A DNA stretch of 22,664 bases from Gracilariopsis chorda (lineage: Eukaryota; Rhodophyta; Florideophyceae; Gracilariales; Gracilariaceae), in NCBI GenBank assembly GCA_003194525.1, contig NBIV01000931.1, positions 1 through 22,664 on the forward strand. Reading direction: 5' to 3'. Made by a program: the position numbers and the translations under genes. The notes beneath the pieces are model-generated. The model did no database searches. It was not told the DNA's origin and was given only the letters and a program-made list of their open reading frames with translations. Shown here piece by piece: positions 1-22,263 of the stretch; the stretch's first letter is position 1, and the number at the start of each line of letters is the position of its first letter.

Positions 1-1753
1 CATTCTGATGTGGATTGTAAGGCACCGTTCGCTGATGTTCAATACCGTGACGTTCAAGCTCTTGTGAAAACTTCTTTGACACATATTCACCAGCATTGTC
101 TGTGCGTAACGCATGTAGCACAGACTCACGTGCGGTGATGGTTTTCACATGTCGGTCACTCTGATTTTGAACCATCTTGAGCCACTTCACGAACACGTGG
201 AACACCTCATCCTTGGTCTTGAGCATGTACAAGAAGCAAAAACGGGAGTGATCATCGATGAATGTGACGAAGTAGCGTGAACCTCCCAAGGAACCTACTT
301 GGATTGGACCACAAATGTCCGAATGCACTAGGTCCAATGGGTGCAAAGCCCGTTCCCCCCCTTGCTTGGGAGTTGGAGCACGTGTAGATTTTCCCACTAC
401 ACAAGAGTCACACACATCCATCGATTGATTCAAGTCCACATTCAGCCCTGACACAACACCGTTACGAGCCATATGTTTGATACCATCCACATTCACATGA
501 GCCATTCGAGCATGCCATAGTGACAGGTCAGTCACAAGTGCGTTGTCCATGTCTTCTGGTACTTCAATCGCGGTACATAGGTAGTACAGTCCTTTGATGC
601 GACGGCCCTGGGCGATCATGGTGTTGCCTTTGTATACACATACTTTGGTTTTGTCAAACACCACTCGCGCACCCAGGTCACACATCGCAGATACTGACAG
701 CAGATGATACCTTAAATTCGGTACGTGCACTACTTCACCCAACCGGCACTTGCTCTTACGCCCTTCAACAGCGAGATCGAGGTGGACACTGCCATGACCA
801 AGAGACTCCAGCTTCGAGTCATTGCCGATACTCACACCGGCAGACTCTCTTTTGCTATAACTGTCAAACATGGACTCGTCATACGTCATATGGGCGGTGG
901 CACCAGAGTCAATGATCCAGTCACTGATACTTTCTTCCACAGAACCTGTCGCAATGAGACAAACAAAGTCAGAGTCACTGTCACATCCTCGTTTCTCGTT
1001 GCCGAGATTGGTCTGCACAGCTGGGTTTGCGGCAGCACTCTGCTCTTTGCTAGCTTCGTCACGTTGTCTCTTGAAACAGTTTCTCTGGATATGCCCCTTC
1101 TTACCACAGTAGTAGCACACCATGGACTTCTTTCGTGACTGCGCACCGACCAAAGCCGTGTCACTTCCGGACTCCTCCTTGGCACGATCGTTCATTCGCT
1201 GTTCCTCTTGCAGCAAACGACTCTTCACAAACTCTAAATCGAGTTTACGATCACTAATCGTGGTGTCAATAGCGACAATGAGGTGTTCGAAGCGGTCTGG
1301 TAGCCCACATAGGATTGCCATAGCGATGTCTTCCTCCTCAACCACTACGTCCATGCTCTTCAGATCCGATGCAAGATGACGAACACGATTGATGAAGTGT
1401 AACATTTTCTCATCATCTCGCATCTTGGCTGTGTAGAAGGCACGTCTTGCATTGATTCGGTTGAGCAGCGTTTTACGCTGGAAAACATCGCAAATGGCTT
1501 TCCACATTTCCGCAGCATTCTCGGTATCCCTCACATGGTCCAAATGCTCATCACTGATGCTGAGACCAATAACAGCCCTGGCCTTGGCGTCTTTCTTCTT
1601 CCATGCTGACAACTCGTCATCGTCCGTAGGCCTGGTTGATTCAAGATGGTCATCGAGGTCCTTGAGTGCAAGCAGCAACTCAACCTTTTGCTTCCATACA
1701 TGGAAGTTATCCTCGCCCAACTTTTCAATCTTGATGCCACCGAATGAATCCAT
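1..1753 (-). CDS. Copia Gag-Pol polyprotein, copy A (partial, runs off left edge)
   Basis: This frame is open from the ATG at 1753 to the window edge, 584 codons with no stop. Residues 1 to about 200 are a UBN2-type Gag that begins MDSFGGIKIEKLGEDNFHVW. A CCHC zinc knuckle (C-x2-C-x4-H-x4-C, residues about 213-226, bases 1076-1117) follows, which would bind the genomic RNA. The aspartic protease motif DSGATAH has its catalytic Asp near residue 282 (about 908-910). Next comes the HHCC zinc-binding region of integrase, with WHARMAH and then CDSC. The integrase core shows catalytic Asp residues in VHSDICGP (317-319) and RTDNAGEY (98-100). The third catalytic residue, a Glu, and the RT and RNase H would lie left of the window. 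Seen: motif order and open frame. Known: this is Ty1/copia order (PR-IN-RT-RH). Inferred: it is the youngest, possibly still coding, element here. Copy B is its damaged near-twin. Confidence 0.95.
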   Translation of the reverse strand, partial: MDSFGGIKIEKLGEDNFHVWKQKVELLLALKDLDDHLESTRPTDDDELSAWKKKDAKARAVIGLSISDEHLDHVRDTENAAEMWKAICDVFQRKTLLNRINARRAFYTAKMRDDEKMLHFINRVRHLASDLKSMDVVVEEEDIAMAILCGLPDRFEHLIVAIDTTISDRKLDLEFVKSRLLQEEQRMNDRAKEESGSDTALVGAQSRKKSMVCYYCGKKGHIQRNCFKRQRDEASKEQSAAANPAVQTNLGNEKRGCDSDSDFVCLIATGSVEESISDWIIDSGATAHMTYDESMFDSYSKRESAGVSIGNDSKLESLGHGSVHLDLAVEGRKSKCRLGEVVHVPNLRYHLLSVSAMCDLGARVVFDKTKVCVYKGNTMIAQGRRIKGLYYLCTAIEVPEDMDNALVTDLSLWHARMAHVNVDGIKHMARNGVVSGLNVDLNQSMDVCDSCVVGKSTRAPTPKQGGERALHPLDLVHSDICGPIQVGSLGGSRYFVTFIDDHSRFCFLYMLKTKDEVFHVFVKWLKMVQNQSDRHVKTITARESVLHALRTDNAGEYVSKKFSQELERHGIEHQRTVPYNPHQN

Positions 1754-1823
1754 GCTTGGTAGATGTCAACAAACAGCACAGGTGCGATGAAAGACCTACG
1801 GCACTTAAGAAGTACAAAAATGG

Positions 1824-1874
1824 CAACAACGACAACAATAACAACAAAAACAACGACAACAACAACAACAAAAC
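1824..1874. repeat. Imperfect (AAC)n simple repeat in copy A leader
   Basis: This is an AAC-rich microsatellite with occasional G or T interruptions. On the transcribed (minus) strand it reads as GTT repeats, about 70 nt upstream of the gag ATG. It is present with nearly the same interruptions in copy B, so it is an inherited part of the element and not a local slippage product. Confidence 0.9.
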
Positions 1875-1885
1875 TTCAAATTCGG

Positions 1886-1956
1886 GCGCACTGACGGGAG
1901 AAACTACCTCCGCTACCCTAGGGTGTCGGAACCCTGGCCCCCGGAGATGCTCCGGG
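1886..1956 (-). promoter_or_regulatory. Conserved leader element with hairpin (copy A)
   Basis: A block of about 38 nt (1886-1923) is almost identical to 13785-13823 in the unrelated-family copy C, although the surrounding leaders are largely diverged. It is followed by a 7-bp perfect stem with a 3-nt loop, CCCGGAG-ATG-CTCCGGG (1940-1956). In copy C the equivalent hairpin position carries a different sequence that still pairs. The location between PBS and gag suits an RNA packaging, dimerisation or translation element. This role is inferred; only the conservation and pairing are seen. Confidence 0.6.
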
Positions 1957-2957
1957 TACAAGACGTCTTCTTCTGTCTTCCCTCTCCTACGTCTAAGGAG
2001 AAGATGCGTCGCTCTCTACGAGGCTTCCAGAGGATGGTTAATGACCCAAGATATGCCTTCACCAAGTCTAACCCTCTCTGGCCTCTTGCAAGAACTTGCG
2101 CGACCTCGCAACTGAAGCTACTATGGCAACCAAAGTACGCTGCTAACGCGCAACCACTTAAGGTCACACGCGGCCTGATCCTAAGAAGGAGGTCAGCCTA
2201 CGCCACGTCGCCTCCCCGCACAAACGCCCAAGGGTCAGATGCACGGATCAAAAGCTCGTTATGGAATACCTTCGCCACAGCCCAAGAATCCCGACACGCA
2301 GTCAGGATCAAAACAAATAATTCAATCACCCGCACCAGCGCAGTACGCCACGGCACCCCGTCCACAGATGCACCCGCTGAACTTACCAGGTCTTAACGAC
2401 CGTCACCGTTATCTGTCCAAATGGACCGGTGGGAAGCCGCTCGACAGTACACCCGCTTTGGTTCAAGCCGCCAGGCTCACGTCCCCGGATACCTGGAATC
2501 ACCCAAAGTAACCCGGATCAACCGCTCGTCGCACTGGACACCAGATGATGATTAAGAAACACGAAAAACAAACAACTGCTGAGCACACGATCACGGAGCC
2601 CAGACTTCGAAACTAGACCGACTCGACCTCACGGATACGACCCGACAAACGACTCGGGGATCCTAAAACACAAGATAGAGGGAGTGTCACACACAAAGTA
2701 GATAGCGATCGACAACACGGGCAACAACGGAGGCCCAACTCAACAACGATAGGAAGTAAACGTCGAACCACTACCACCACAACGCCCTCAGGGAGGAACG
2801 CAAACCCAAGGAGAATGACCAACACCGACCAACAATGGGATCAAGACACCCGACGCAACGACGAAAGAGGCAACAACAGCGAAACGGATGAACGGCGGTG
2901 AGGGAGAGCGGCGACAGACGAACGATGCGGAAAGGGATAGCGGCAGCGGTCAGCGGG

Positions 2958-2972
2958 GCTGGGCCCATAACC
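2958..2972 (-). other. Primer-binding site, initiator tRNA-Met half-molecule type (copy A)
   Basis: The plus strand reads GCTGGGCCCATAACC, which is the anticodon arm of eukaryotic initiator tRNA-Met (anticodon CAT). It directly abuts the LTR end. On the element's RNA this is the complement, so the primer would be a tRNA cut in the anticodon loop and not the usual tRNA 3' end. Drosophila copia is the classic case of this priming. Confidence 0.85.
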
Positions 2973-3059
2973 TGTTGAAAGTTGAAAGAAAGTTGAGGGG
3001 ATGGAAGGGAAGTTCGCCAGCTCTAGCTTGGATTTACTTGGAGGTCCTTCAGGCACATC

Positions 3060-3066
3060 TTATATA
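3060..3066 (-). promoter_or_regulatory. TATA box of LTR2
   Basis: TATATAA reads on the minus strand within GGTATATAAGATG. The same sequence sits at 11480-11486 in LTR3, and a weaker CTATATGAG is at the equivalent place in the C-family LTR (14231-14236). The position fits a transcription start some 30 bp downstream, still inside the LTR. Confidence 0.6.
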
Positions 3067-3281
3067 CCACTCTAAACTCGAATTGCGCGGGAACACCAAC
3101 TACAAGTAAAACCTAAACCACTAAGCAGGGACACTCAATACTACCAATCATCATCTAACATGACATAGCCAGCTCAGCACAACCTCATTACACCAACGCA
3201 CACCAACGCACCAATGTTCTGTAATAGTTACGTGCATACACATGACCATGACAAGGCACAAATTCACGACTCCAACACACG

Positions 3282-3328
3282 CCAGCACATGCCAACACAT
3301 CACGGTAAGGCAACACGTCACGGTAAGT
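3282..3328. repeat. Repeated U3 motif around CACGGTAAG (LTR2)
   Basis: Two units lie head to tail here, each containing ACA(C/T)(A/G)TCACGGTAAG. A related unit beginning CCAGCACATGCCAAC and containing CACGGTAAGTG occurs twice in the C-family LTR (14379-14408 and 14451-14480). The motif is therefore repeated within U3 in two families, as expected of a transcription-factor or enhancer site. The factor is unknown. Confidence 0.5.
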
Positions 3329-3462
3329 CGGCACGTAACCTGTGGCGTTAGTGCCATGTCATCATGTGGCAATGCACACAACACCCACGTCATCAATATA
3401 CCCGTGCATGTGTAAACCTGTTGACAGTGCATGCGCACCTTACCATTGTACCAACCACTGCT

Positions 3463-3516
3463 GTACCACTTGTACCAGGTGTCAACCACGTACCACTTGT
3501 ACCAGGGGTCAACCAC
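3463..3516. repeat. 27-bp tandem duplication in U3 of LTR2
   Basis: Two copies of a 27-bp unit (3463-3489 and 3490-3516) differ at one base. Each unit is loosely built of 9-bp steps starting GTACCA, GTACCA and GTCAACC. LTR3 has a single degenerate version of the unit near 11899-11925. Since U3 copy number varies between two LTRs of the same family, it is a marker for their relationship. Confidence 0.85.
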
Positions 3517-3778
3517 TTCATCAGTATCCCCTGCACACAACGTACACTGTGACCACTGTAGTAGCTGGACACGTGGGTGTGTCCAACCGATCCAGTTATG
3601 CCATACCACTTGTACGCACCACGTTGCATATGTACATTTGCAGTAGCCAATCAGAAGCCAGTTTCACGTTGGGTTCGCGCACACGCGCATATGCGCTTTT
3701 GCAGAGGTACCCTCTAAAACAGCCCATGCTCCCCGGAACATTTGGTTTTCAGTGACAGCACAGGTACTACTGCCAACA

Positions 3779-4853
3779 CACACATCGTAGATACTGACAG
3801 CAGATGATACCTTAGATTCGGTACGTGCACTACTTCACCCAACCGGCACTTGCTCTTACGCCTCTCAACAGCGAGATCGAGATGGACACTGCCATGACCA
3901 AGAGACTCCAGCTTCGAGTCATTGCCGATACTCACACCGGCAGACTCTCTTTTGCTATAACTGTCAAACATGGACTCGTCATACGTCATATGGGCGGTGG
4001 CACCAGAGTCAATAATCCAGTCACTGATACTTTCTTCCACAGAACCTGTGGCAATGAGACAAACAAAGTCAGAGTCACTGTCACATCCTCGTTTCTCGTT
4101 GCCGAGATCGGTCTGCACAGCTGGGTTTGCGGCAGCACTCTGCTCTTTGCTAGCTTCGTCACGTTGTCTCTTGAAACAGTTTCTCTGGATATGCCCCTTC
4201 TTACCACAGTAGTAGCACACCATGGACTTCTTTCGTGACTGCGCACCGACCAAAGCCGTGTCACTTCCGGACTCCTCCTTGGCACGATCGTTCATTCGCT
4301 GTTCCTCTTGCAGCAAATGACTCTTCACAAGCTCTAAATCGAGTTTACGATCACCAATGGTGGTGTCAATAGCGACAATGAGGTGTTCGGAACGGTCTGG
4401 TAGCCCACATAGGATTGCCCTAGCGATGTCTTCTTCCTCAACCTCTACGTCCATGCTCTTCAGATCCGATGCAAGATGACGAACAAGATTGATGAAGTGC
4501 AACATATTCTAATCATCTCGCATCTTGGCTGTGTAGAAGGCACGTCTTGCATTGATTCGGTTGAGCAGCGTTTTACGCTGGACCACATCGCAAATGGCTT
4601 TCCCCATTTCCGCAGCATTCTCGGTATCCCTCACATGGTCCAAATGCTCATCACTGATGCTGAGACCAATAACAGCCCTGGCCTTGGCGTCTTTCTTCTT
4701 CCATGCTGACAACTCGTCATCTTCCGTAGGCCTGGTTGATTCAAGATGGTCATCGAGGTCCTTGAGTGCAAGCAGCAACTCAACCTTTTGCTTCCATACA
4801 TGGAAGTTATCCTCGCCCAACTTTTCAATCTTGATGCCACCGAATGAATCCAT
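3779..4853 (-). pseudogene. Copia gag-protease, copy B (pol deleted, nonsense mutation)
   Basis: The body is nearly identical to copy A but offset by 3100 bases. Gag starts at the ATG at 4853. An in-frame TAG at 4509-4511 stands where copy A has GAG, so Gag is cut after 114 codons. Past it the same frame continues through the zinc knuckle (4176-4217), the protease motif DSGATAH (Asp near 4008-4010) and the start of the pre-integrase segment (LRYHLLSVS). Similarity to copy A then stops exactly at the LTR2 end (3778/3779), and the frame runs on as noise into the LTR. Integrase, RT, RNase H and the polypurine tract are gone. Seen: the stop and the junction. Inferred: a non-autonomous derivative, superficially like TR-GAG elements, that could not have made plus-strand DNA in its present form. 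Confidence 0.93.
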
Positions 4854-5379
4854 GCTTGGTAGATGTCAACAAACAGCACAGGTGCGATGAAAGACCTACG
4901 GCACTTAAGTAGTACAAAAATGGCAACAACGACAACAATAACAACAAAAACAACGACGACAACAACAACAAAACTTCAAATTCGGGCGCACTGACGGGAG
5001 GAACTACCTCCGCTACCCTAGGGTGTCGGACCCCTGGCCCCCGGAGATGCTCCGGGTACAAGACGTCTTCTTCTGTCTTCCCTCTCCTACGTCTAAGGAG
5101 AAGATGCGTCACTCTCTACGAGGCTTCCAGAGGATGGTTAATGACCCAAGATATGCCTTCACCAAGTATAACCCTCTCTGGCCTCTTGCAAGAACTTGCG
5201 CGACCTTGCAACTGAAGCTACTATTGCAACTAAAGTACGCTGCTAACGCGCAACTACTTAAGGTCACACGCGGCCTGATCCTAAGAAGGAGGTGAGCCTA
5301 CGCCACGTTGCCTCCCCGCACAAACGCCCAAGGGTCAGATGCACGGATCAAAAGCTCGTTATGGAATACCTTCGCATCA
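4854..5379 (-). other. Copy B leader, part adjacent to gag
   Basis: This matches copy A 1754-2279 closely, including the AAC repeat (4924-4974) and the conserved block with hairpin (4986-5056). It is cut by the Harbinger and resumes at 10698. No gene is present. Confidence 0.88.
4986..5056 (-). promoter_or_regulatory. Conserved leader element with hairpin (copy B)
   Basis: Same block as 1886-1956 in copy A. The 7-bp stem CCCGGAG/CTCCGGG at 5040-5056 is unchanged. It differs from copy A by an A-to-G change just inside the 38-nt block. Confidence 0.55.
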
Positions 5380-5404
5380 GGGCCTGTCTTAACAGCGTTG
5401 ACGA
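5380..5404 (+). repeat. Left terminal inverted repeat of Harbinger
   Basis: It begins GGGCCTGTCTTAACAGCG and pairs with 10673-10697 in inverted orientation, with one substitution and a one-base length difference. The leading GGGCCTGT is typical of Harbinger ends. Confidence 0.93.
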
Positions 5405-5786
5405 TCGTGAATGCAAAAACTTGAACGCCCCCATACATTGAGTTTTTCAAAATTTGAATGGCTGTAAGTTAATGTCTTGTCTTCTCTAGTGCCCCGAACC
5501 GGGGCGCTAGCCCCTATGTCTATCACGCATCACCGATCTGCCCGACAAAATGCTTTGACGCAGTGTTATTCCGCACCACTATGTCGAACCTCCTCTGCTA
5601 CAAGAGGTAATGATCTCCTCCGAAACTCGTTTGTCAATCGCATTCCATCTCATTATACTCTCCGTCTTGTATACCGATTGTGGGTAAGTCTTGCGGTTAA
5701 AGAAAGTTTTCAATGAAGCAGACATAACAATACTTCTTATAACTACACTGCAATCACTATCGAAAATACACTGGCACACAACAAAC
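5405..5786. other. Subterminal, non-coding left end of Harbinger
   Basis: This is the stretch between the inverted repeat and the transposase start. It presumably carries the transposase promoter, but I recognise no clear motif or gene in it. Confidence 0.5.
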
Positions 5787-7058
5787 ATGATGGCCATCAT
5801 TTCTAGCTCTTCAACTAACAGACTTCTAAGGCAGACTGCAGTTGTTGTAGATCTTTACGCGCATTATTTGGACGTCACGAGAACAGTTTTGAATGCTACA
5901 AAACCTGTCCGTCGCCGCACCCCGACAGTTGTCAAGCGCCATCTAACGTTTGAAACTTTGTCATCCAATCTGAATTCTCGTGCCTTTAGGCAGGTGTTTC
6001 GCATCTCGAACGACGATTTTGAACTTCTATATGGAAAAGTCTCATAATTGCTAATGAAGAATACGGAAATGGGAGAACGATCTGGTAGATTAACAATAAC
6101 GCCGAGAACGCGATTAGCGATTACATTACGGATGTTGGCTGGAGCGAGCTATGGTGATATTATGCTCTCTTTTCATATTGGGCGGTCATCTACATATTAA
6201 ATGTTTCACGAGACGCGAAAGGCTTTAATGAAGGTTCTCGTTCTTCCAGGTCTACCGCGCTCAGAAGAGGAACTTCATGAACTGTGTATGGGGTTCAAGC
6301 ATTCTCGACGTAAGCTTAGTCCTCTCACCGGCTGTGTAGATGCACTCGATGGCATTGCGATAAAAATTAAGAAACCTTCTTGTCCTCATGCAGCTGCGTT
6401 CTATTGTCGGAAAAGATTCTACTCGCTACCAGTTCAGGCTCTTGTTGATTCTCGTTATCGGTTTTTGGACGTTTCTATTCGATGCGTCGGCTCAACGCAT
6501 GACCAATTGGCACATGCTGTGTCTAAGCTTGGGCAGTATCTTGCAAATAATAAGCTTCAGATCGAGTATTGGATCGCGGGGGATGAGGCTTATCTTTGTA
6601 CCAACAGTCTTATTTGTCCAATACCCATATCACAAGTGAGTAGTTGTTCGGAAGATGCCTTTAATTTTTTTCTTTCTTTTCTTCGTATTCACGTGGAGCA
6701 AGCTTTTGGGATGCTCGTGGCAAGATGGCGTGTGCTACGAGATTTGGAGTTCTCCCCTGAGATATGTTCAGAGATTGTGGCGTTATGCATGAAGCTTCAC
6801 AACTTTTGTATCGATAATAAACCCGGTAGCTGGAAGGAAGTCACCCCGGACGATGTTTGCGAACGTAACAAAGACGTACTCGAGTGGTATGAATGCTGTA
6901 AAGATCGCCACTCAACTTGGGTAACAGGGGAAGCAATGAGTGCAAAGAGTGGTAGGGGCATGTTTTCGAAGAGGGAGGAGTTAGTTGAGGTGATACGAAG
7001 GAAAGGTCTCAGCCGCCCGGCTGTTGCAGGTGCGCCATGTCGAATTTCTGAGTTATAG
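5787..7058 (+). pseudogene. Harbinger DDE transposase, two in-frame stops
   Basis: One frame runs from ATG 5787 to the TAG at 7056-7058 but contains TAA at 6045-6047 and 6198-6200. Similarity to Harbinger transposases continues across both, so they are nonsense mutations and not gene borders. The N-terminal part has the helical FRQVFRISNDDFELLYGK segment. The segment between the stops has TPRTRLAITLRMLAGASYGDI, a helix-turn-helix-like region followed by FHIGRSSTY. The DDE nuclease (DDE_Tnp_4 type) shows ALDGIAI (Asp at 6348-6350), WIAGDEAY (Asp at 6582-6584) and HVEQAFG (Glu at 6696-6698). These residues would coordinate metal for cutting and joining the transposon ends. The full frame is about 423 codons, close to the usual family length. 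Both stops stand where CAA-to-TAA changes would fit. Confidence 0.93.
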
Positions 7059-7293
7059 ATTTAGAACGTCAAGGCGTTGCCGAGCCCTCTTCTGGATCGA
7101 GTTCTGAAGTCGAAGGAAAGTGTAACTGCTTGGATTCTTGAATTCCTCCAGTCTGCTCCAGGTAGGTGGCTGCCAGTGAGGCGATATTTAGTCGTCTATC
7201 GCTCTTCCAGCATTCCTCCGCTCAGTGCTACAAGACCTTTGTTGTGCTTCTGGTGCTCACATAAACGCCAATGCTTCTGCCGAAAGCGCACAG
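7059..7293. other. Spacer between transposase and captured gene
   Basis: I recognise no gene here. Short open frames exist on the plus strand. A possible splice donor (CCAG/GTAGGT, near 7158-7167) and acceptor (CTTCCAG, near 7209) could mark a residual intron of the captured gene, but this is only suggestive. Confidence 0.4.
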
Positions 7294-8250
7294 CATGATG
7301 ACATTTTCAAGGCGGCCACAAAGCTGCCTTACTCCGAGCGAATCGTGCACAAATCGTGGCGCGTCGAGGAACTTGTGTGCAGGGAGGGGCCGACAAGTTT
7401 GCCGTCACTCCAGAAGATGACAAGATTTACTCTGACTTCTTTCCTTACCTCGCTAAGATGGCTCGCGATGCAAGCGCTGCTGCACCGCTTGCCGCCTTTG
7501 AGTCCATTACCAAATATGCGGACACGGTGCCGCCACGAATGGTGCGAAGGTCCGCCGCCGAAGTCGCTAAGGCTGTCGCTGAAAAGAGGCTTGCCGGAAG
7601 ACCGCTCAACAAGACAAAAGCAAGACACATTTGCCATGTATGTGGGCGCTGATGCGGGCGATGTCGCTGTCGATGTCGTCGCAACAGTCGGCTTTAACCA
7701 TCGCACCACGAAGGTTGTAGTCGCCGTTGTGGAGGCTATCACCGTTGCTCTAGAAACGTATGGAAGTCGAGTAATCCCGAGTAGGACCGTTGCCGTGAAG
7801 ATTCCGCCGCGGCTTAATCATTCGCAGAAGGCGGTTCGAAACGCGGCGAAGAACCTTGTTATTAAGGTGCTGGAGTCGTGTGATCAAAACCTTCTTCTAA
7901 CTGCGCTTATTAACCTTTTGTTGACTAACATCAGAGCTATTCAACGCTCTGAGTCGGAGAAATCTTCTGCATTGGCCAAATCTTCTATATGTATCAAATC
8001 TGTCGCAAAGGTCTCGAAACGAGGGTTTTCTAACTGTCGAGTCAGTGAGCTTCTTCGTGATATTCATTTGTTCCTCATGGCTAATCCAGCTCCGCGGGAC
8101 AGGGACACCTCAGCAGAAGATCAGACGTTTGCCATGCGGCTCTTGAAGACTGTTGTAAATGCGATCATAGATGAGATTGGTTCCGGAAATCGAAGGAACT
8201 TGGAGCTTATTCCGCAACCGGAGAAGTCTCAGTTCGTACACTACATTGAT
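7294..8250 (+). pseudogene. Captured host gene: XMAP215/CKAP5/MOR1-type TOG1 domain fused to C-terminal domain
   Basis: The translated product resembles two separate parts of the XMAP215/CKAP5/MOR1 microtubule polymerase. Bases 7294 to about 7855 match the first TOG domain: IFKAATKLPYSERIVHKSW, the helix around FFPYLAKMARDASAAAP, and VALETYGSRVIPSRTV followed by AVRNAAKNLV. From about 7850 the match jumps to the C-terminal region: VIKVLESCDQNLLLTALINL, LLRDIHLFLM, MRLLKTVVNAI and LELIPQPEKSQFVHYID. TOG domains 2-5 are absent. The best reading shifts frame near 7390 and back near 7638, and again after about 8250, so it is decayed. In the cell the parent protein binds tubulin and drives microtubule growth. 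Seen: both homologous blocks in the right order and strand. Inferred: capture by the transposon followed by internal collapse. The subfamily name is less sure than the family. Confidence 0.82.
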
Positions 8251-8830
8251 AAGAAGAAGAAGACGAAGAGAGTTCAAGCCCGCCGCAAATTCAAAGATCG
8301 TCTGCAGCTACTACTCAGCCTGTTCATCTAAACAAAGAGTACGAAGAGAATGCCTTGGTTGAAGAGCCACTTTCCAGGATTGTGCTCTGTAAAGAGAGGG
8401 AGAGAGAAGATGGATGTTATTGGGCTCGGCTTCAACGCCAATGCGGGCACTGGGCCAATGTCGTGGTGGTGTTCCCGTGTCTGCTCGCGAGTATGATTCG
8501 CACATTGCTACGAAGGGGAAGAGAGAACGAATTCTGTAAAACAAACTCCTTTATAACATAGAACTCATCAACAATGATCGCCTCCCGCCACCACCCGATG
8601 AAAAGTCTCCAGCAGACATTGCCACCACGATCAAATCACTAGAAACGTTACGATATGAACAGATTATGAACAGTGCCTAGAAGCAAACAACAATTGCAGA
8701 AGCACGGAGAAAGTCAGTTATCTTCATTGTCCGAGTCATTTCCACTTGTTTCCTTGCAGAACTTTCTGTATCGTTTCTTGCTTCGCATAAGACTTGTTCG
8801 CAAAATGTCCTGGACTTCTTCATCAATATA
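8251..8830. other. Harbinger interior with no confident gene; possible tail of captured gene
   Basis: Right after 8250 a one-base shift gives an acidic, low-complexity linker (DEEEDEESSSPPQIQ and onward). Patches such as VSAREYDSHIATKGK and DEKSPADIATTIKSLETL appear in various plus-strand frames down to about 8680. This could be the eroded C-terminal tail of the captured gene, but I cannot align it. No other gene is evident. Confidence 0.35.
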
Positions 8831-10337
8831 CTAAGAAGCACGCTGGTATCGTTCCGCACTCTCCAACAGCTTACCGACTAAAACTCCTTCCTCTTCAGCT
8901 TCATTGGCGTAAATCAAACCCCTTCCATGCGCAGTCTCGCTTTGTGCTTTCCGGATCTCAAATTGTTGCTTCACATAGCCAGTAAAACTACTTATAGACT
9001 TAGACACGTCCTCCAAACCATTCTGAAGTTCTGTACTCTTCCTTTTTTTCTGTTTTGTTTCACATGTTCTATCCGTTAGTGTTTCCTTTACGCCTTCATC
9101 TAGCCCTCCTCTTTCATTACTAATAAGTTTGGAAGCCATCTGAAGAAGCTCTGTGTCCTCTTGGGGAGTTCCCACCCTGCACACCAAGAACATTATCAAA
9201 GTCCTTTTCGAATCCGATGAATAGTCTCCGCTGGTACTGCACAGCGACAAAAAAGCTGTAATCCGAGTAGGATCGTTCTGCCCTGACGCCGACCATATGT
9301 CGTACACTATAGTAAAAGATCTCTTTGCCGTGAAAAAATGATCTTTGAGAGATGAGGCCGTTCTGATAGCAAGAGGGCGACTGTTTGAATCAACTTCTTC
9401 CAAATTGCCAGTTAAATCTTCCCTTGAATCTACACGAACATCGTTAAATCTCTGAGCAATCGCTCCCCAAAAGGACTCACGCGTGACACGAGCATCGCTC
9501 TCTTCCCGGGTAAGCTGCCCACCAAAAAGCTTTAAATAACGCATGTCTACAGAGTAAATCGTCCCGCAGAAGCACAAGCAAGCGAGCAAACTCGTTGAGA
9601 GAGAAGTTCGCTGTCCCAGAATTTGATGGACCATTGTCAGCATCGCTTCTACTCCCCCCTCCAAGCCGTGACCTCAGTATTCCCGATTTCTCTCCAGGAT
9701 ACACCATGTGCAAAAGAGATTGAATTTCTGGAAGCAATTCCCACGTTCGTAAACTCTTAAACGCATTTTGAACCCACACATCATAGTCATTACAAGCTCT
9801 GTTCTGTTTCGCAATATTATCAAAAGAAATGTTTTTCCTGGTTGTCATATACAAGTGTAGCATGAATCTAGATATCAGTTCGCTTTTCGATCTGTTACTT
9901 ATCTTCAGCTTCCATTGTCTTGCGATCAGCTGAATTTTCTTCACGGTTTTCTCTTTCAAGTAGGAGTAAAACCGTACCGCATTGTCCTTTTCAGTAAATG
10001 AAAGAACTTCAAGCTCCGAAGTACCAGCCAAACTCCCTACGTTGCTGTTTTTGCTTCTTTGCTGATTTACGGAAGGATGCTTGCGAGGGCTACGTCGGAT
10101 AACGCGAGCTTGCGTAACAGCCGAAACATGAGCCGAGTGCAATTCAGAAGTAGAAAGAAAGAGTGGTTGAGGTGCAGTGGAAACGTATGCAATCTGAGGC
10201 TGACTTGTTTGACCTGTAGAGTTGCTGGGAGTAGTAACCGACGTGATTCGCGGCGTAGGATCGTCTAACAGACGTTGTACATGATGTGCACCATTTCCTG
10301 CGTCTGGTTGTTCGAGAGGCAGGAAATGTGCTGACAC
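8831..10337 (-). pseudogene. Harbinger Myb/SANT-like partner protein, one frameshift
   Basis: The gene starts at the ATG at 10337 and ends at 8831. Residues 1-85 are rich in Ser, Thr, Pro and Gln, followed by a basic patch (RVIRRSPRKH). A region near residues 115-165 contains WKLKISNRSKSELISRF, reminiscent of a SAP helix pair. The second half begins FSLNEFARLLVLLRDD. Then the frame changes at a run of five A (9524-9528) and continues as GGQLTREESDARVTRESFWG, a second helix LKDHFFTAKRSFTIVYDIW and a conserved WSASGQND. The spacing of aromatic residues resembles Myb/SANT (trihelix) DNA-binding domains. The C-terminus has a basic, NLS-like KQKKRK and a charged helix. In Harbinger elements this partner helps the transposase enter the nucleus and bind the ends. 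It is convergent with the transposase. The frameshift is a decay mark unless it is a sequencing error. Confidence 0.75.
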
Positions 10338-10672
10338 GCGTTGAAAATGATCGGTGGGAACGCTGTTGACAATCTTAATACGAGGAAGAATTAGAACAGG
10401 AAGATTGGGTAGGGAGCGGGTAAGTTTGTGGGGGAGATTAAAGAAGCATGCCAGAAGTACATGGACGCGCCAAAGCGACTATGCTTTAATTTGCGCGGCT
10501 CCAAGAGGCGGATGTGGAGGTCAGACTGCTAGCAAGAGGTCCTTTGAATTCAAAAATTGCAAGCTTTGCTTACAGACCGAGAGGTTTAAGAAATGTTAAG
10601 GGGCGCAAGGTAGGGGCTTCCAAACTGCCAATCATTTAAAGACACGTTCCGTTCACGCCTGAACGCTGGCTT
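10338..10672. other. Subterminal right end of Harbinger
   Basis: This non-coding stretch lies upstream of the partner gene and so should carry its promoter. I see no clear motif or gene. The last part next to the inverted repeat has GAACG and CGTTC runs on both strands. Confidence 0.45.
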
Positions 10673-10697
10673 CGTCAACGCTTGTTAGGACAGGCCC
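10673..10697 (-). repeat. Right terminal inverted repeat of Harbinger
   Basis: The reverse complement begins GGGCCTGTCCTAACAAGCG and matches the left end at 5380-5404 with one substitution and one extra A. It is followed by the TCA duplication. Confidence 0.93.
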
Positions 10698-11377
10698 TCA
10701 GCCCAAGAATCCCGACACGCAGTCAGGATCAAAAAAAGTAATTCAATCACCCGCACCAGCGCAGTACGCCACGGCACCCCGTCCACAGATGCACCCGCTG
10801 AACTTAACACGTCTTAACGACCGTCACCGTTATCTGTCCAAATGGACGGGTGGGAAGCCGCTCCAGAGTACACCCGCTTTGGTTCAAGCCGCCAGGCTCA
10901 CGTCCCCAGATACCTGGAATCACCCAAAGTAACCCGAATCAACCGCTCGTCGCACTGGAAACCAGATGATGACCAAGAAACACGAAGTACAAACAACTGC
11001 TGAGCACACGATCACGGAGCTCAGACTTCGAAACTAGACCGACTCAACCTCACGGATACGACCCGACAAACGACTCGGGGATCCCAAAACACAAGATAGA
11101 GTGAGTGTCACACACAAAGTAGATAGCGATCGACAACACGGGCAACAACGGAGGCCCAACTCAACAACAATAGGAAGTAAACGTCGAACCACTACCACCA
11201 AACCGCCTCAGGGAGTAACGCAAACCAAAAGAGAATGACCAACACCGACCAACAATGGGATCAAGACACCCGACCCAACGACGAAAGAGGCAACAACGGC
11301 GAAACGGATGAACGGCGGTGAGGGAGAGCGGTGACAGACGAGCGATACGGAAAGAGATAGCGGCAGCGGTCAGCGGG
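10698..11377 (-). other. Copy B leader, remainder next to the LTR
   Basis: This resumes the leader cut at 5379 and matches copy A from about 2280 to 2957 with scattered point differences. No gene is present. Confidence 0.88.
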
Positions 11378-11392
11378 GCTGGGCCCATAACC
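11378..11392 (-). other. Primer-binding site, initiator tRNA-Met half-molecule type (copy B)
   Basis: GCTGGGCCCATAACC on the plus strand, identical to the site at 2958-2972 and likewise abutting an LTR that starts TGTTG. Confidence 0.85.
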
Positions 11393-12185
11393 TGTTGAAA
11401 GTTGTAAGGAAGTTGAGGGGATGGAAGGAAAGATCGCCCGCTCTGGCTTGGATTTACTTGGAGGTCCTTCAGGCACATCTTATATACCACTCTAAACTCG
11501 AATTGCGCGGGAACACCAATTACAAGTAAAACCTAAACCACTAAGCAGGGACACTGAATACTACCAATCATCATCTAACATGACATAGCCAGCTCAGCAC
11601 AACCTCATTACATCAACGCATACCAACGCACCAACCTTCAGTAATAGTTACGTGCATACACATAGACCATGACAAGGCACAAATTCAGGACTCCAACACA
11701 CGCCAGCACATGCCAACACATCACGGTAAGTCAACACGTCACGGTAAGTCGGCACGTAACCTGTAGTGTTAGTGATATGTAATCAAGTGGCAATGCATCA
11801 AGTGGCAATGCACACAACACCCACGTCACCAATATACCCGTGCATGTGTAAACCTGTTGACAGTGCATGCGCACCTTACCATTGTACCAACCACTACTGT
11901 ATCACTTGTACCAGCTTTTAACCACTTCACCAGTATCCCCTGCACACAACGTACACTGTGACCACTGTAGTAGCTGGACACGTGGGTGTGTCCAACCGAT
12001 CCAGTTATGCCATACCACTTGTAGGCACCACGTTGCATATGTACATTTGCAGTAGCCAATCAGAAGCCAGTTTCACGTTGGGTTCGCGCACACGCGCATA
12101 TGCGCTTTTGCAGAGGTACCCTCCAAAACAGCCCATGCTCCCGGAACATTTGGTTTTCAGTGACAGCACAGGTACTACTGCAACA
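11393..12185 (-). repeat. 5' LTR of copia copy B (LTR3)
   Basis: This 793-bp LTR is bounded by TGTTG and CAACA and is homologous to LTR2 along its length. It has one copy of the 27-bp unit that LTR2 has twice, and small insertions of its own, such as a repeated CAAGTGGCAATGCA near 11784-11810. The TATA box is at 11480-11486. Its right edge at 12185 is an insertion point into the protease-integrase junction of copy C. The adjacent five bases TACAA are the expected target duplication, and their partner should lie beyond the left window edge. Confidence 0.9.
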
Positions 12186-13440
12186 TACAATATCTGGGAC
12201 ATGTATTACATCCGTCAAACGGAGGTTAGGCTCGACGAAGGCAGTAAAACATCCCCTTGTTGTGTGGCCGTGACCGTGGTATTGTCAGCAAGTTCAATAC
12301 GCCTTGGAATATGTCAACCAATGCGTTGGTCACAAACGTAGAAGCAGAACAAAAGAAATGGGACGTGGCACCACTGTCCGCATACTTATCCATGCTCTTA
12401 TACACGGATGGGAGCACTGTAGACTTCTCGACACCCATTCCGGCGATCTCAATCTTGGATCCCCTTCGTGATGACTTGCCAGAGTGTTTAGACTTGTCAC
12501 CTGAACCACCTTTGAGTTGGTCCAAGATGACTTTGGGTAAACGGTTGTCCGGATTGTCAGGATTCATGTGGCATCGGTCTTGCGTGTGCCATCGTGTTCG
12601 CCGAAAGTGCAACGGTAACCGTTTTTGGTGGCAACAGCATAAGCACGCCCATTGGACTAAATGTTTGAGTTGGAATCCGATATATTACCATCATTTTCGC
12701 CCCCATTTGGCAATTTGTTTCGTCCACTAGAACGGCCGTTCCCTTTACCTCGGTTCTTTTTACGGTTACGACACGAGTGGCACTGACAGAACCAGGTTGA
12801 CGAGCATTGTACTTATCAATCAGGGTAGTTCCCACATAGTCCCACGTCAATTCCGAGATCTCCTTAGTCCTAAATGCCGCAGCAGTTGACTCTAATGAGC
12901 AGTTGGGATCGATAGAGGGTAGTAGCATTGGAGCCTTATGTGACTTTGGAATGGCCGCATCCTTCCCCACTCGTTCTAATTTTGAGAATAAAGAGGCAAA
13001 CTGGTCCACAAATTCTGACATATTTTGCCCATTATACGACATTCGGAACAGTTGGGTCTGTACTGCGATACGAGAAACTGTTCTGTTGTAGGCATAACTT
13101 GCATCTAGCATTCTGAACATACGCCCAGGATCATCATCCACATCCATCACAACGCGTAGTGGGGCATCTCCCAGTGCACAGATGATGATTGCACATGCCT
13201 TTTCGCGTTTCGCCATGAGTCGGGAACTGCCTTGAGCAGCACTAGAGTTGAATCGTGAGTCATTGTGGCACTAGATGCCTCATGCAGGGTAGATGCCACT
13301 ACATTCCACACACCTTTAATGCGACATGCGGGACGAAGTCGATGTCGCCATAGCGTATAATCCTCACCACGCTTACCAAGAAAGCGTGGGATTTTCACAA
13401 CAGAGTTGGTTTCAGACTCAACTTCAGGTCAGACAAACAT
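12186..13440 (-). pseudogene. Copia gag-protease, copy C (second family, interrupted by LTR3)
   Basis: This copia family differs from A/B. Gag begins near the ATG at 13440, but a TGA follows at 13429-13431. Clear Gag sequence is KIPRFLGKRGEDYTLWRHRL and CRIKGVWNVV, then after a frameshift near 13215 KACAIIICALGDAPLRVV and the following UBN2 helices to about 12790. A second shift near 12755 leads to a basic, Gly/Asn-rich C-terminus. The CCHC knuckle near 12600 has lost a Cys codon and its frame. The protease motif YADSGATSHFF is intact (Asp at 12376-12378). The sequence continues as LADNTTVTATQQGD and ends at HVPDIV where the A/B composite is inserted. The remaining pol should be found to the left of the A/B composite. 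Confidence 0.88.
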
Positions 13441-19590: not shown

Positions 19591-22263
19591 GTGAACGCCA
19601 GTGTTGGACCCCTACCAGAGGACAGCCGAGGCAGACCTCTTGCAATGAAAGCTTTCGTCGTAGAGCCAAGTGGCCTGTTCAGGTCGAATGCCCCAGTTGC
19701 CTACCTAGTAGCAGTAAGAGAATCGCATCACATGTCCACCGGAAATTTTGGACGTCGAGTTGTCAAGTACAAGCATTTCAAGCATGATTCAATGAAAGCT
19801 GAGAAAGAGGCTTTTACACTGCTCTACTCTTAAGGTGAGATTCATGCCCCGTATGACACAGCAACTTATATATCATCCATGGATACTAACAAATGATACG
19901 AAAGGAGTCTAAAATGGGCAGAACACTCTAGACAAATTCTGTATATGGATCATATGCTGCTGAACTCTGGCACTCTTCTTCAGCAATAGTTGCTTCGTAC
20001 CAGCACAAATGTTGATAAATAGAGACTTGCTTACTTGGAAACATATCAAATGAGGATGGTGGAAAACCGTGAGCTGCACGCTGGAACCCATACCGGAACA
20101 GATGAACTCGGGCCTCCGGGTACACTCTTCCTTCCAGGTAAACATAAAAATTCTCCGCGTACTGGAGACAAAAACATAGATTTGCAAGCAATGGTCACTC
20201 GGCTGAGCTCCCCGACGCTTTTCGTCGTAGTCATAATGAACTTATGGCGGAAAGAGATGAAGAGGATTAGTATGGAAAAGGAAAACAAGGGAGTATCTTC
20301 TCTACTGGGAGACAGAAGCCGTCCTTTTGATAGACCAGATCTTATTGCAAGAATGTACCACCAGTATGCTAATTTAATCATGAAGGTTCTACAGAATACT
20401 TCAGAAGAGCTCTTTGGCTTTAAATGCATTTGTATTGCCGCCAAAATTGAGTTCCAGGAGAGACACACTCCACATCATCATATTCTTCTTTGGTTGGAGG
20501 GGAGCGGAATTGAAAATTCTGAGATCATTGACACTTTGATCAAAGCCGAACTGCGGCCGAGTGACTCGCCTGGAGACCAAGTACTCCGAGAATTGGTGAA
20601 GAAATTCAATATGCACAGACACCCTCCATAATTACATGGTCATCCATCTGACAAGAGATGCCGATTTGAGTATGATCGACAAAGAATGGTTTCCGAGACA
20701 ACGATAACTGAGTACGTAAACTTAGTGACCTACAAAAGAAGAAGGACAAAAGATTTGAAAGTAGTTCCCTACCATCCAGATCTCACAATAAAGTACAAGG
20801 CTAACATCAATGTGGAAAGAACCCAATGTGGCAGCCCTATATCATACCTGACGAAGTATGCTTCAAGAGTGCCAAAGAACAGTAATTTATTTTATCAAGT
20901 CGAACGGAAAGCCAATCAGGTGCACAGAGCGACATGCTTCAAAATGAGATCAGAGCGTACATGAGAGCAAGAGGTGTGGGCGCGGTTGAAGCTGCATGGA
21001 ACCCCTTTGAGTTCAAATATGTTCGCATCTATCCAAATGTATAAGCACTTGACATACATCTCCGTGGAGAGCGACTGGTTTTGACTCGAAACGTAAGACT
21101 GCCTAGACGTCTGAAGTCCTCCTACTGGAATGATATTTCAAATGGCTCTACCTGTAAAGAGATTTGGGCAACCTGGCATACTACGACACTATATGTGTAT
21201 GTATACGATAAGCTACCCCGCTCTGTACCAGAGTCGGAATGTACTCGGTATGGAGGAAGTCTACGGATGTATGTCGTGCAATGATCCGAAAACGATTGAA
21301 CTGTGACTTGAATTAGATTTGCTTCTCCTGCATATCCTGAACGGTTCGCTCTTCAGAAATTGCTTCTGAATTCTGCATCCAGCTCCTTTGATGATCTTAA
21401 ACGTGTTCGGAGCGAGTCTTATTCAACCTATAAAGAAGCGGCAGTAGCCCGTGGACTATGTATCCATGGTGACGGGTTTTTGATGAGGACGTGGGTTTCT
21501 ATTCTACTGATGCTGAGCTGCGTTACTTTTTCTTCGATTCCTCTCAACAAGGGGTGAATCCTAAAACTGTGATTGAAAAGCACGAAGGAGCTCTATCTGC
21601 GGACATTGCCGAGGGAAACAGAGCACAAACAAGAGAAGAATTAACTCGAAGAAACATTGATATTTTGGACAGACAATAGTGGTCAGCTTATCAGAAATGG
21701 TCCCTCCTTTCATCATACTGTATCAAAACTTCATCCTGGAGAGCGGGGTCTGCAATTAGCCGAGAATCTAGATGAAATACGTCGCAGCTCTTCTTGCAGG
21801 TCCAGGAGAAGGTTTCAAGAGTGTTATGATGATCTGAAAGAAGGCCAGAAGCTCGTTTTTGACAAAATTAAAGACCAAAATACAATAATCAGAGAGAATG
21901 AGAGATTCTGTAAGACTCAACACACACGGAAGCATTTTCTCCTGACAAGGACGTTCGGGAACAGGTATGTCCCATCTTCTATCTTTGCTGAGAGATACTG
22001 TTGAGCATAAAGGCCTATTAGTGCAGATGACAGCCAGGACAGGTATTGCTGCTGCACTAAATGAAGGCGGAAGAACTTTGCATAGTTTGCTTGGATTGGT
22101 GTTAGAACTAGTTATTATTTACCTTTCTTTGAATATAGTTGGCTCTAGCATCAGTTCTAACGTGTACAAACCAGATAGTGTTATTCTACTCGATCTCCTG
22201 AGGAGATCTGTTACCCATTCGCCATGCCAAACTGGCCCCAAAGTCCAGTTGACATCTTCGTGA
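19591..22263 (+). pseudogene. Helitron Rep/helicase pseudogene
   Basis: The N-terminal frame continues from 19591 to 20943 with in-frame stops at 19831, 19894, 19987, 20020 and 20629. It contains LLNSGTLLQQ (canonical RLFQQ block) and GTLFLPGKHKNSPR. The HUH motif is EFQERHTPHHHILLWL (about 20449-20496). VVPYHPDLTIKYKANINVE leads to the tyrosine pair in YLTKYASR (about 20842-20870). A one-base loss in an A run near 20941-20944 shifts the frame to EIRAYMRARGVGAVEAAW, and a TAA follows at 21042. ERFALQKLLLNSASSSFDDL (about 21339-21400) and FFFDSSQQ lead to a Pif1-like helicase with GTGMSHLL at the Walker A site, then TARTGIAAALNEGGRTLHSL. Intact, it would nick, replicate and unwind Helitron DNA in rolling-circle transposition. 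It is clearly dead. Confidence 0.9.

Follow-up and report, generated by a model that had tools for sequence, protein, structure and literature searches.

The stretch of DNA analysed here, referred to as the window, comprises 22,664 nucleotides of the red alga Gracilariopsis chorda (contig NBIV01000931.1, numbered C881 among the 1081 contigs of the 91.3 Mb genome that was searched) and contains a PIF/Harbinger-like DNA transposon of 5,318 bp (positions 5380 to 10697), nested in a retrotransposon. The transposon is flanked by the 3-bp target site duplication TCA, at 5377 to 5379 on the left and 10698 to 10700 on the right, and is bounded by terminal inverted repeats of 25-26 bp beginning GGGCCTGTC. 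The left repeat (5380 to 5404, plus strand, 25 bases) differs from the right one (10672 to 10697, minus strand) by one mismatch and one gap. A transposase gene lies on the plus strand (5688 to 7058), split in this contig into frames at 5688 to 6047 and 6201 to 7058, and a second transposon gene lies on the minus strand (8831 to 10478). Between the two genes, on the plus strand, is a captured remnant of about 1.24 kb from a gene of the XMAP215 family (7145 to 8384, both ends being approximate).

The transposase matches the Pfam family DDE_Tnp_4 at an E-value of 3.2e-26 on 6201 to 7055, with the entire 158-position profile covered, and by this match, the inverted repeats and the 3-bp duplication the element is classed as PIF/Harbinger-like (PHIS group). 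Five full-length copies were found in the genome (C881, C226, C176, C202 and C116). C881 and C226 are one locus assembled twice, 99.7% identical over 16 kb and differing inside the element by single-base gaps only, with no substitutions. The four independent copies diverge from each other by 2.0-2.6%, and all four have inverted repeats and a 3-bp target duplication. This duplication is TCA at the window locus and TGA on both sides in C176, C202 and C116; TCA and TGA are one sequence in two orientations, the usual duplication of PIF/Harbinger elements being TAA or TTA. The available part of the report on grapevine PIF elements gives TAA/TTA as common there (PMC2528002), and according to the accessible text of another study, duplications of 0, 2 and 3 bp are known within the PHIS group (PMC12730594). 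Besides the window's contig, the element is present on four long contigs (122-244 kb), the duplicate of the window locus being among them, and a transposase from another assembly (P0079) is 98% identical.

The transposase forms a single long frame in two of the five copies (C202 and C116), with 499 aa in C202, and 41 nonsynonymous and 21 synonymous changes separate its four independent copies (dN/dS 0.59, p=0.051). The second gene is represented by two frames in the window and, in C226, the duplicate contig, by a frame of 565 aa; 56 nonsynonymous and 19 synonymous changes were counted among its four independent copies. The gene is conserved and runs antisense to the transposase, and relatives of it occur near many transposase matches. 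No Pfam match was obtained for the second gene, a Myb/SANT domain having been sought, and two relatives showed only sub-cut-off matches to unrelated families; the predicted fold model of its product is too poor for a judgement (pLDDT 44).

The XMAP215 remnant lies within the inverted repeats in all five full-length copies, at four target sites, and the element is therefore a gene-capturing (transduplicating) transposon. An earlier note on this DNA, made from the sequence alone, had advised looking for other Harbinger copies with the same insert, which are thus present; the assembly error that it had allowed for, with a host locus placed inside the element, is excluded by the independent copies with target duplications of their own. 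In C116 the insert itself contains a unique insertion of 919 bp at the equivalent of position 7186, which is bounded by short inverted termini (GTGGTGCAAT...ATTGCACTAC, with a single mismatch) and is perhaps another DNA transposon.

Around the transposon, the host retrotransposon is of Copia type, with Pfam matches to gag and Pol_BBD. Two Copia-type segments that are 93-98% alike were observed in the window, one at 679 to 3782 and the other at 3774 to 5376 together with 10701 to 12190; the transposon breaks the second segment, of which the first is the unbroken counterpart. A Helitron_like_N domain was also observed at 20023 to 20631 (E-value 2.4e-13, in a 202-aa frame). Unmerged duplicate contigs with single-base gaps occur in this assembly (C881/C226 and C448/C504), and single frames therefore need to be checked against the duplicate.

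Structure of the XMAP215 fragment

The fragment begins with a leader of about 116 bp upstream of the captured gene (7145 to 7260), followed by the first TOG domain, TOG1 (7261 to 7860, in two frames), the conserved C-terminal domain of the family (7861 to 8250), of which the frame is open in all five copies, and a degraded remnant of the region past this domain (8251 to 8384); in C116 a stop codon at 8251 immediately follows the C-terminal domain. Its origin from an XMAP215 gene, with the two domains in family order, is established by several matches. A 379-aa frame matches the Pfam family XMAP215_CLASP_TOG at 8.3e-17, and the insert matches the XMAP215 protein of Gracilaria domingensis (P0004, 2115 aa) at residues 11-204 (3.5e-47, partly via the wrong frame), 36-121 (2.3e-24) and 1763-1901 with 1906-1946 (1.1e-67), while tblastn found no match at 1e-3 for any of 100 codon-shuffled inserts. 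When the 379-aa frame was searched against proteins, a 242-aa TOG protein was the one match, and a PDB search with the insert gave weak matches only, to CLASP (E-value 0.77) and a mini spindles chain (E-value 0.92). The earlier note had recognised a Harbinger-type element with TOG1 and the C-terminal domain of one XMAP215 gene, which agrees with these matches; the limits that it gave, 7294 to 8250, do enclose XMAP215 sequence, and the true stretch is longer, from 7145 to about 8384.

The direct join between the two halves, expected at about 7846-7864, was located at 7858 to 7861: the relic C152, a second XMAP215-like copy in this genome described below, matches the insert through 7860, and the C-terminal part of the resident gene matches it from 7859. 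According to the alignments, about 1,570 residues are missing here relative to a family protein. The missing stretch had been thought to hold four TOG domains, a number that stays unconfirmed, Pfam recognising two TOG-like regions in the corresponding part of P0004 (~313-486 and 957-1129). The proposed microhomology deletion is not supported at the join, where the halves share 2-3 bases (TT or GTT), a number indistinguishable from chance.

On examination of the reading frame, it was found that the fragment does not have the make-up of a gene for a working protein. The start codon at 7261 to 7263 is ATA in all five copies and ATG in both C152 and the resident gene, and all five also have a frameshift at 7623 to 7624, where 2 bases that C152 and the resident gene possess are lost. 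The 379-aa fusion frame was rejected as a real product, as it needs a 1-bp gap near 7385 that is found in the C881 contig alone, the base being present in C226 and the other three copies. In the four copies other than C881, a 153-aa frame covers the first half of TOG1, and a separate frame of 355 aa (329 in C116) covers its second half together with the C-terminal domain. Among the four independent copies, 27 nonsynonymous and 11 synonymous changes were counted over the three parts of the insert (7:6 for TOG1a, 14:2 for TOG1b and 6:3 for the C-terminal domain), and TOG1a alone leans to constraint (p=0.09). When the insert is compared with C152, the ratio of change at codon positions 1 and 2 to that at four-fold sites is 0.87-0.91; positions 1 and 2 change at nearly the four-fold rate, and the two together have thus evolved nearly without constraint since their split. 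The suggestion that the hybrid keeps a tubulin-binding module does not survive the lost start codon, the broken TOG1 frame and the 27:11 changes, and the XMAP215 cargo is predicted to be a passenger that yields no working protein.

Cargo of the same slot in sister subfamilies

The region between the two transposon genes was also read in sister subfamilies, five being covered with that of the window, as grouped by transposase identity and spacing. The slots of the other four contain a piece of a 3-ketoacyl-CoA synthase (KCS) gene, a piece of NOT1, a retrotransposon and, in C101, nothing that was recognised on reading. The KCS piece occurs in C138 (200765-201073; L059:1266-1574) and C32 (L060), of which the transposase is about 65% identical, and is antisense to the transposase. 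In C138 it matches a PDB entry at 5.9e-26 and Pfam FAE1 at 2.6e-8, and across the piece the DNA of C32 is 85-88% identical to that of C138. The resident KCS gene on C135 is 71% identical, and C41 also has matches, with a KCS fragment at 318721-318998.

The NOT1 piece is found in the same sense as the transposase in C156 (50201-51601; L063:2002-3402) and C127 (L064:4917-6344), and that of C156 matches Pfam at 9.6e-90 and CNOT1 in the PDB at 4.2e-78. In C127, frames over 5.7 kb are presumably NOT1 by their resemblance, the C156-like part alone having been matched. NOT1 matches occur on 13 element-bearing contigs, namely C156, C127 and 11 others with transposase or second-gene matches. The resident NOT1 gene is present on C40 as a 2394-aa frame, and the cargo stems from this gene. 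The possibility of NOT1 as a retained gene was considered and is not supported, the comparison of C156 with C127 giving a neutral-looking dN/dS of 1.46. In C74 the slot holds frames of a non-LTR retrotransposon (L062:1033-5175), with an endonuclease and reverse transcriptase frame (reverse transcriptase match at 5.5e-31) and a sub-cut-off RNase H match. A spacing of 5.7 kb between the two genes, as in C74, was also observed in C24, C82, C236 and C10. As sister subfamilies hold other gene pieces at this place, the slot seems to be permissive for added DNA.

Origin of the XMAP215 fragment

There is one intact resident XMAP215 gene in the genome, a 1653-aa frame on C448 that continues on C504; the two contigs overlap by 1,790 bp at 99.8%, and each has single-base frame breaks that are absent from the other. 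The resident protein is 91% identical to P0003, a protein of a relative, 75% to that of G. domingensis and 74% to that of Agarophyton chilense. Alignment of the insert to this full-length gene, as the earlier note had proposed, gave a DNA identity of 74-76%. The relic C152 is a decayed, truncated copy, of which the similarity to the family ends at about residue 612 and which is 84% identical to the insert from 7145 exactly to the join. It also has the leader in common with the insert (33 of 116 bases differ in a global alignment), for which the resident gene is hardly alignable. No transposon traces were recognised in the 10 kb read around C152. Beside the relic, a frame with an NB-ARC domain and an N-terminal piece of an alcohol dehydrogenase were observed (L023:4004-5086 and 2385-2807); this part of the contig is perhaps a patchwork of gene fragments.

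Both halves of the insert are closer to the G. domingensis gene than to the resident one (79.8% vs 70.5% for TOG1 and 90.6% vs 84.4% for the C-terminal domain), as is C152 (74.4% vs 64.4%). Residues shared with one side only number 22:0 for TOG1, 12:0 for the C-terminal domain and 80:6 for C152, Gracilaria side to resident side, so that the insert as a whole has 34 residues in common with the Gracilaria type only and none with the resident protein and P0003 only. The counts argue against recent descent from the resident gene, and the earlier view of a host gene as the parent is disfavoured on the same grounds. Many of the one-sided residues may nevertheless be ancestral states that disappeared along the long branch of the resident line. 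In simulations under a single simple model (LG+G4), carried out for C152 only, its excess of 80 minus 6 was reached in 11 of 300 replicates with C152 outside Gracilaria and in 3 of 300 when C152 branched early from the resident line; given this and the long resident branch, the counts are weaker than they look. The residues that C152 has in common with a single one of the two species also differ in number, 15 for G. domingensis against 2 for A. chilense, a difference that was reached in none of 300 simulations under each alternative tree (outside Gracilaria or with the resident gene).

In a tree of 27 rows, from which P0013 was left out (extended N-terminus), the insert and C152 were placed inside the clade formed by G. 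domingensis, A. chilense and P0006 with support of 99/97, and a 15-row tree with 12 of the 25 red-algal proteins P0003-P0027 gave the same clade placement (97/98). As judged from these sequences, the gene tree conflicts with the species tree, as would be expected of horizontal transfer. The forks that place C152 and the insert beside G. domingensis itself have moderate support (84/72 and 88/86 with 27 rows, 83/82 and 79/75 with 15). P0006, P0007 and P0019, which are without the C-terminal motif searched for, are absent from the C-terminal and joined trees. For the N-terminal part, a clade of the insert, C152, the resident gene and P0003 is rejected at p=0.002. Placement with the resident gene gives p=0.047 for a six-row composite of C152 and the C-terminal domain of the insert, and is not rejected when the whole insert is taken by itself (p=0.060) or when its C-terminal domain is (p=0.38). 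Separate donors for the two halves are not needed, both having the same affinity, with the C-terminal domain alone undecisive.

At four-fold sites the insert diverges by 52-63% from the resident gene and by 14-16% from C152, and at codon positions 1 and 2 by 10-16% and 13-14%, respectively. As a control, the NOT1 cargo and its resident gene differ by 7% at four-fold sites, a value that illustrates how a captured resident gene appears in this genome and that stands in contrast to the 52-63% for XMAP215. On the evidence of trees and divergence taken together, a foreign, Gracilaria-type origin of the insert is favoured over the resident gene, with a confidence somewhat better than even.

An old duplication of XMAP215, before the split of Gracilaria and Gracilariopsis or early in the resident line, would account for the same data if one copy was kept as the resident gene and the other, present until recently, left C152 and the transposon insert. 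We regard this as the main rival, of lower probability but deserving consideration: the AU test does not reject a position of the insert and C152 just outside the clade of all Gracilaria-type genes, as its sister (p=0.109, 0.099 and 0.080), nor the insert alone with the resident gene, and the donor line was constrained until late, the 52-63% at four-fold sites being accompanied by only 10-16% at positions 1 and 2. However, with C152 included the resident clade is rejected for the N-terminal part, a second copy outside Gracilaria leaves the 15-versus-2 sharing unexplained, and loss of one copy in each line is required; an intact protein of the second type beside P0003 is absent among the 76 matches listed, which is a weak point. 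It is far less probable that the resident gene was simply captured, with internal deletion and fast decay thereafter. Membership of the same gene family, the derivation of both ends from one gene and the DNA identity of 74-76% agree with such a course, but the 34-to-0 residues do not, nor does the p-value of 0.002 for the N-terminal part with C152, nor the contrast of 52-63% from the resident gene at four-fold sites with 14-16% from C152, in copies that differ by 2.0-2.6% overall.

The frame of 355 aa, half of TOG1 with the C-terminal domain, is open in three of the four independent copies (329 aa in the fourth), and the insert is kept in all five full-length ones, as might be expected if the remnant were a working third gene of the transposon, acting as a microtubule-interfering decoy or as an RNA silencer of the parent. 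Such a role is very improbable given the lost start codon, the TOG1 frame broken in all copies and a near-neutral pattern among them in which clear purifying selection is absent; the 74-76% identity to the resident gene would also be low for silencing by pairing. The affinity to Gracilaria could be due to Gracilaria DNA in the sample, in the element contigs or in C152. This is the least credible of the explanations, since an intact gene would be expected to come along with contaminating DNA, and among 14 matches the one XMAP215-type gene that is intact is not of the Gracilaria kind; in addition C152 is decayed, and the element is on four long contigs besides the window's, one being the duplicate locus.

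The explanation that we prefer, and hold to be probable, is that of a Harbinger element with a frame-broken XMAP215 piece borne in its slot, captured from a Gracilaria-type gene and carried as a passenger. A Gracilaria-type XMAP215 gene would have entered the lineage, of which C152 would be the remnant, and an ancestor of the element would have taken up its two ends. The middle may have been lost during or after the capture, through end joining or template switching at the 2-3 shared bases, and the element with its insert would then have spread to at least four sites. That a Harbinger lineage with a reusable slot itself carried the piece from a Gracilaria-like alga across the genus boundary, inside the transposon, can be put forward only tentatively, and we think it rather unlikely.

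Relation to known systems

It is suspected that genes are exchanged between eukaryotes with DNA transposons as vectors, and to our knowledge cut-and-paste elements with a piece of a foreign host gene have seldom been documented. Here an apparently foreign housekeeping-gene fragment is found in several copies of an element, beside an intact resident gene and a relic outside the element, and it is this combination that allows donor, capture and spread to be distinguished. With the cargo of the sister subfamilies (KCS, NOT1 and a retrotransposon), the acquisition of DNA by Harbingers and the neutrality of cargo become approachable in one genome. Fungal Starship and ToxhAT transposons reportedly carry genes between species, and are alike in that the history of the transposon cargo differs from that of the host. 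They are other types of elements with host-relevant genes, whereas the red-algal cargo is a dead fragment in a 5.3-kb element, of which the transfer by the element itself is putative.

The literature covered, to which subscription journals mostly do not belong, contained no report matching gene capture by a red-algal Harbinger or transposon-borne transfer of this kind. As for other mobile DNA in these algae, the available part of PMC4814812 describes plasmids as a mobile pool that Gracilaria and Gracilariopsis have in their organelles. Capture by PIF/Harbinger elements, which the earlier note took to be uncommon, is already known: KCS and NOT1 pieces fill the slot of sister subfamilies, and captured gene fragments were reported in grapevine PIF elements in 2008 (PMC2528002). 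What is new is that the donor is probably foreign and that the slot is used repeatedly. As far as the accessible text describes it, Pifvine-3 of grapevine is similar in having kept its transposase and in carrying host gene fragments, some of which are common to several copies; its cargo is situated in the 5' region and has its match within the same genome, whereas the red-algal cargo lies between two genes, joins two distant parts of one gene and is matched better by another genus (PMC2528002). Pack-TYPE elements, which include Harbinger-PIF ones, likewise hold host coding DNA between their repeats and multiply it by transposition, but by the definition in the available part of PMC8903248 they are non-autonomous, and the red-algal element has a transposase, in a single long frame in C202 and C116. 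The TET/JBP Harbinger of rust fungi (PHISTA) and the SET HarbingerS of Phytophthora also contain an additional host-derived gene; in the portion of PMC12730594 available they are described as encoding an enzyme, whereas the cargo of the red-algal element is broken.
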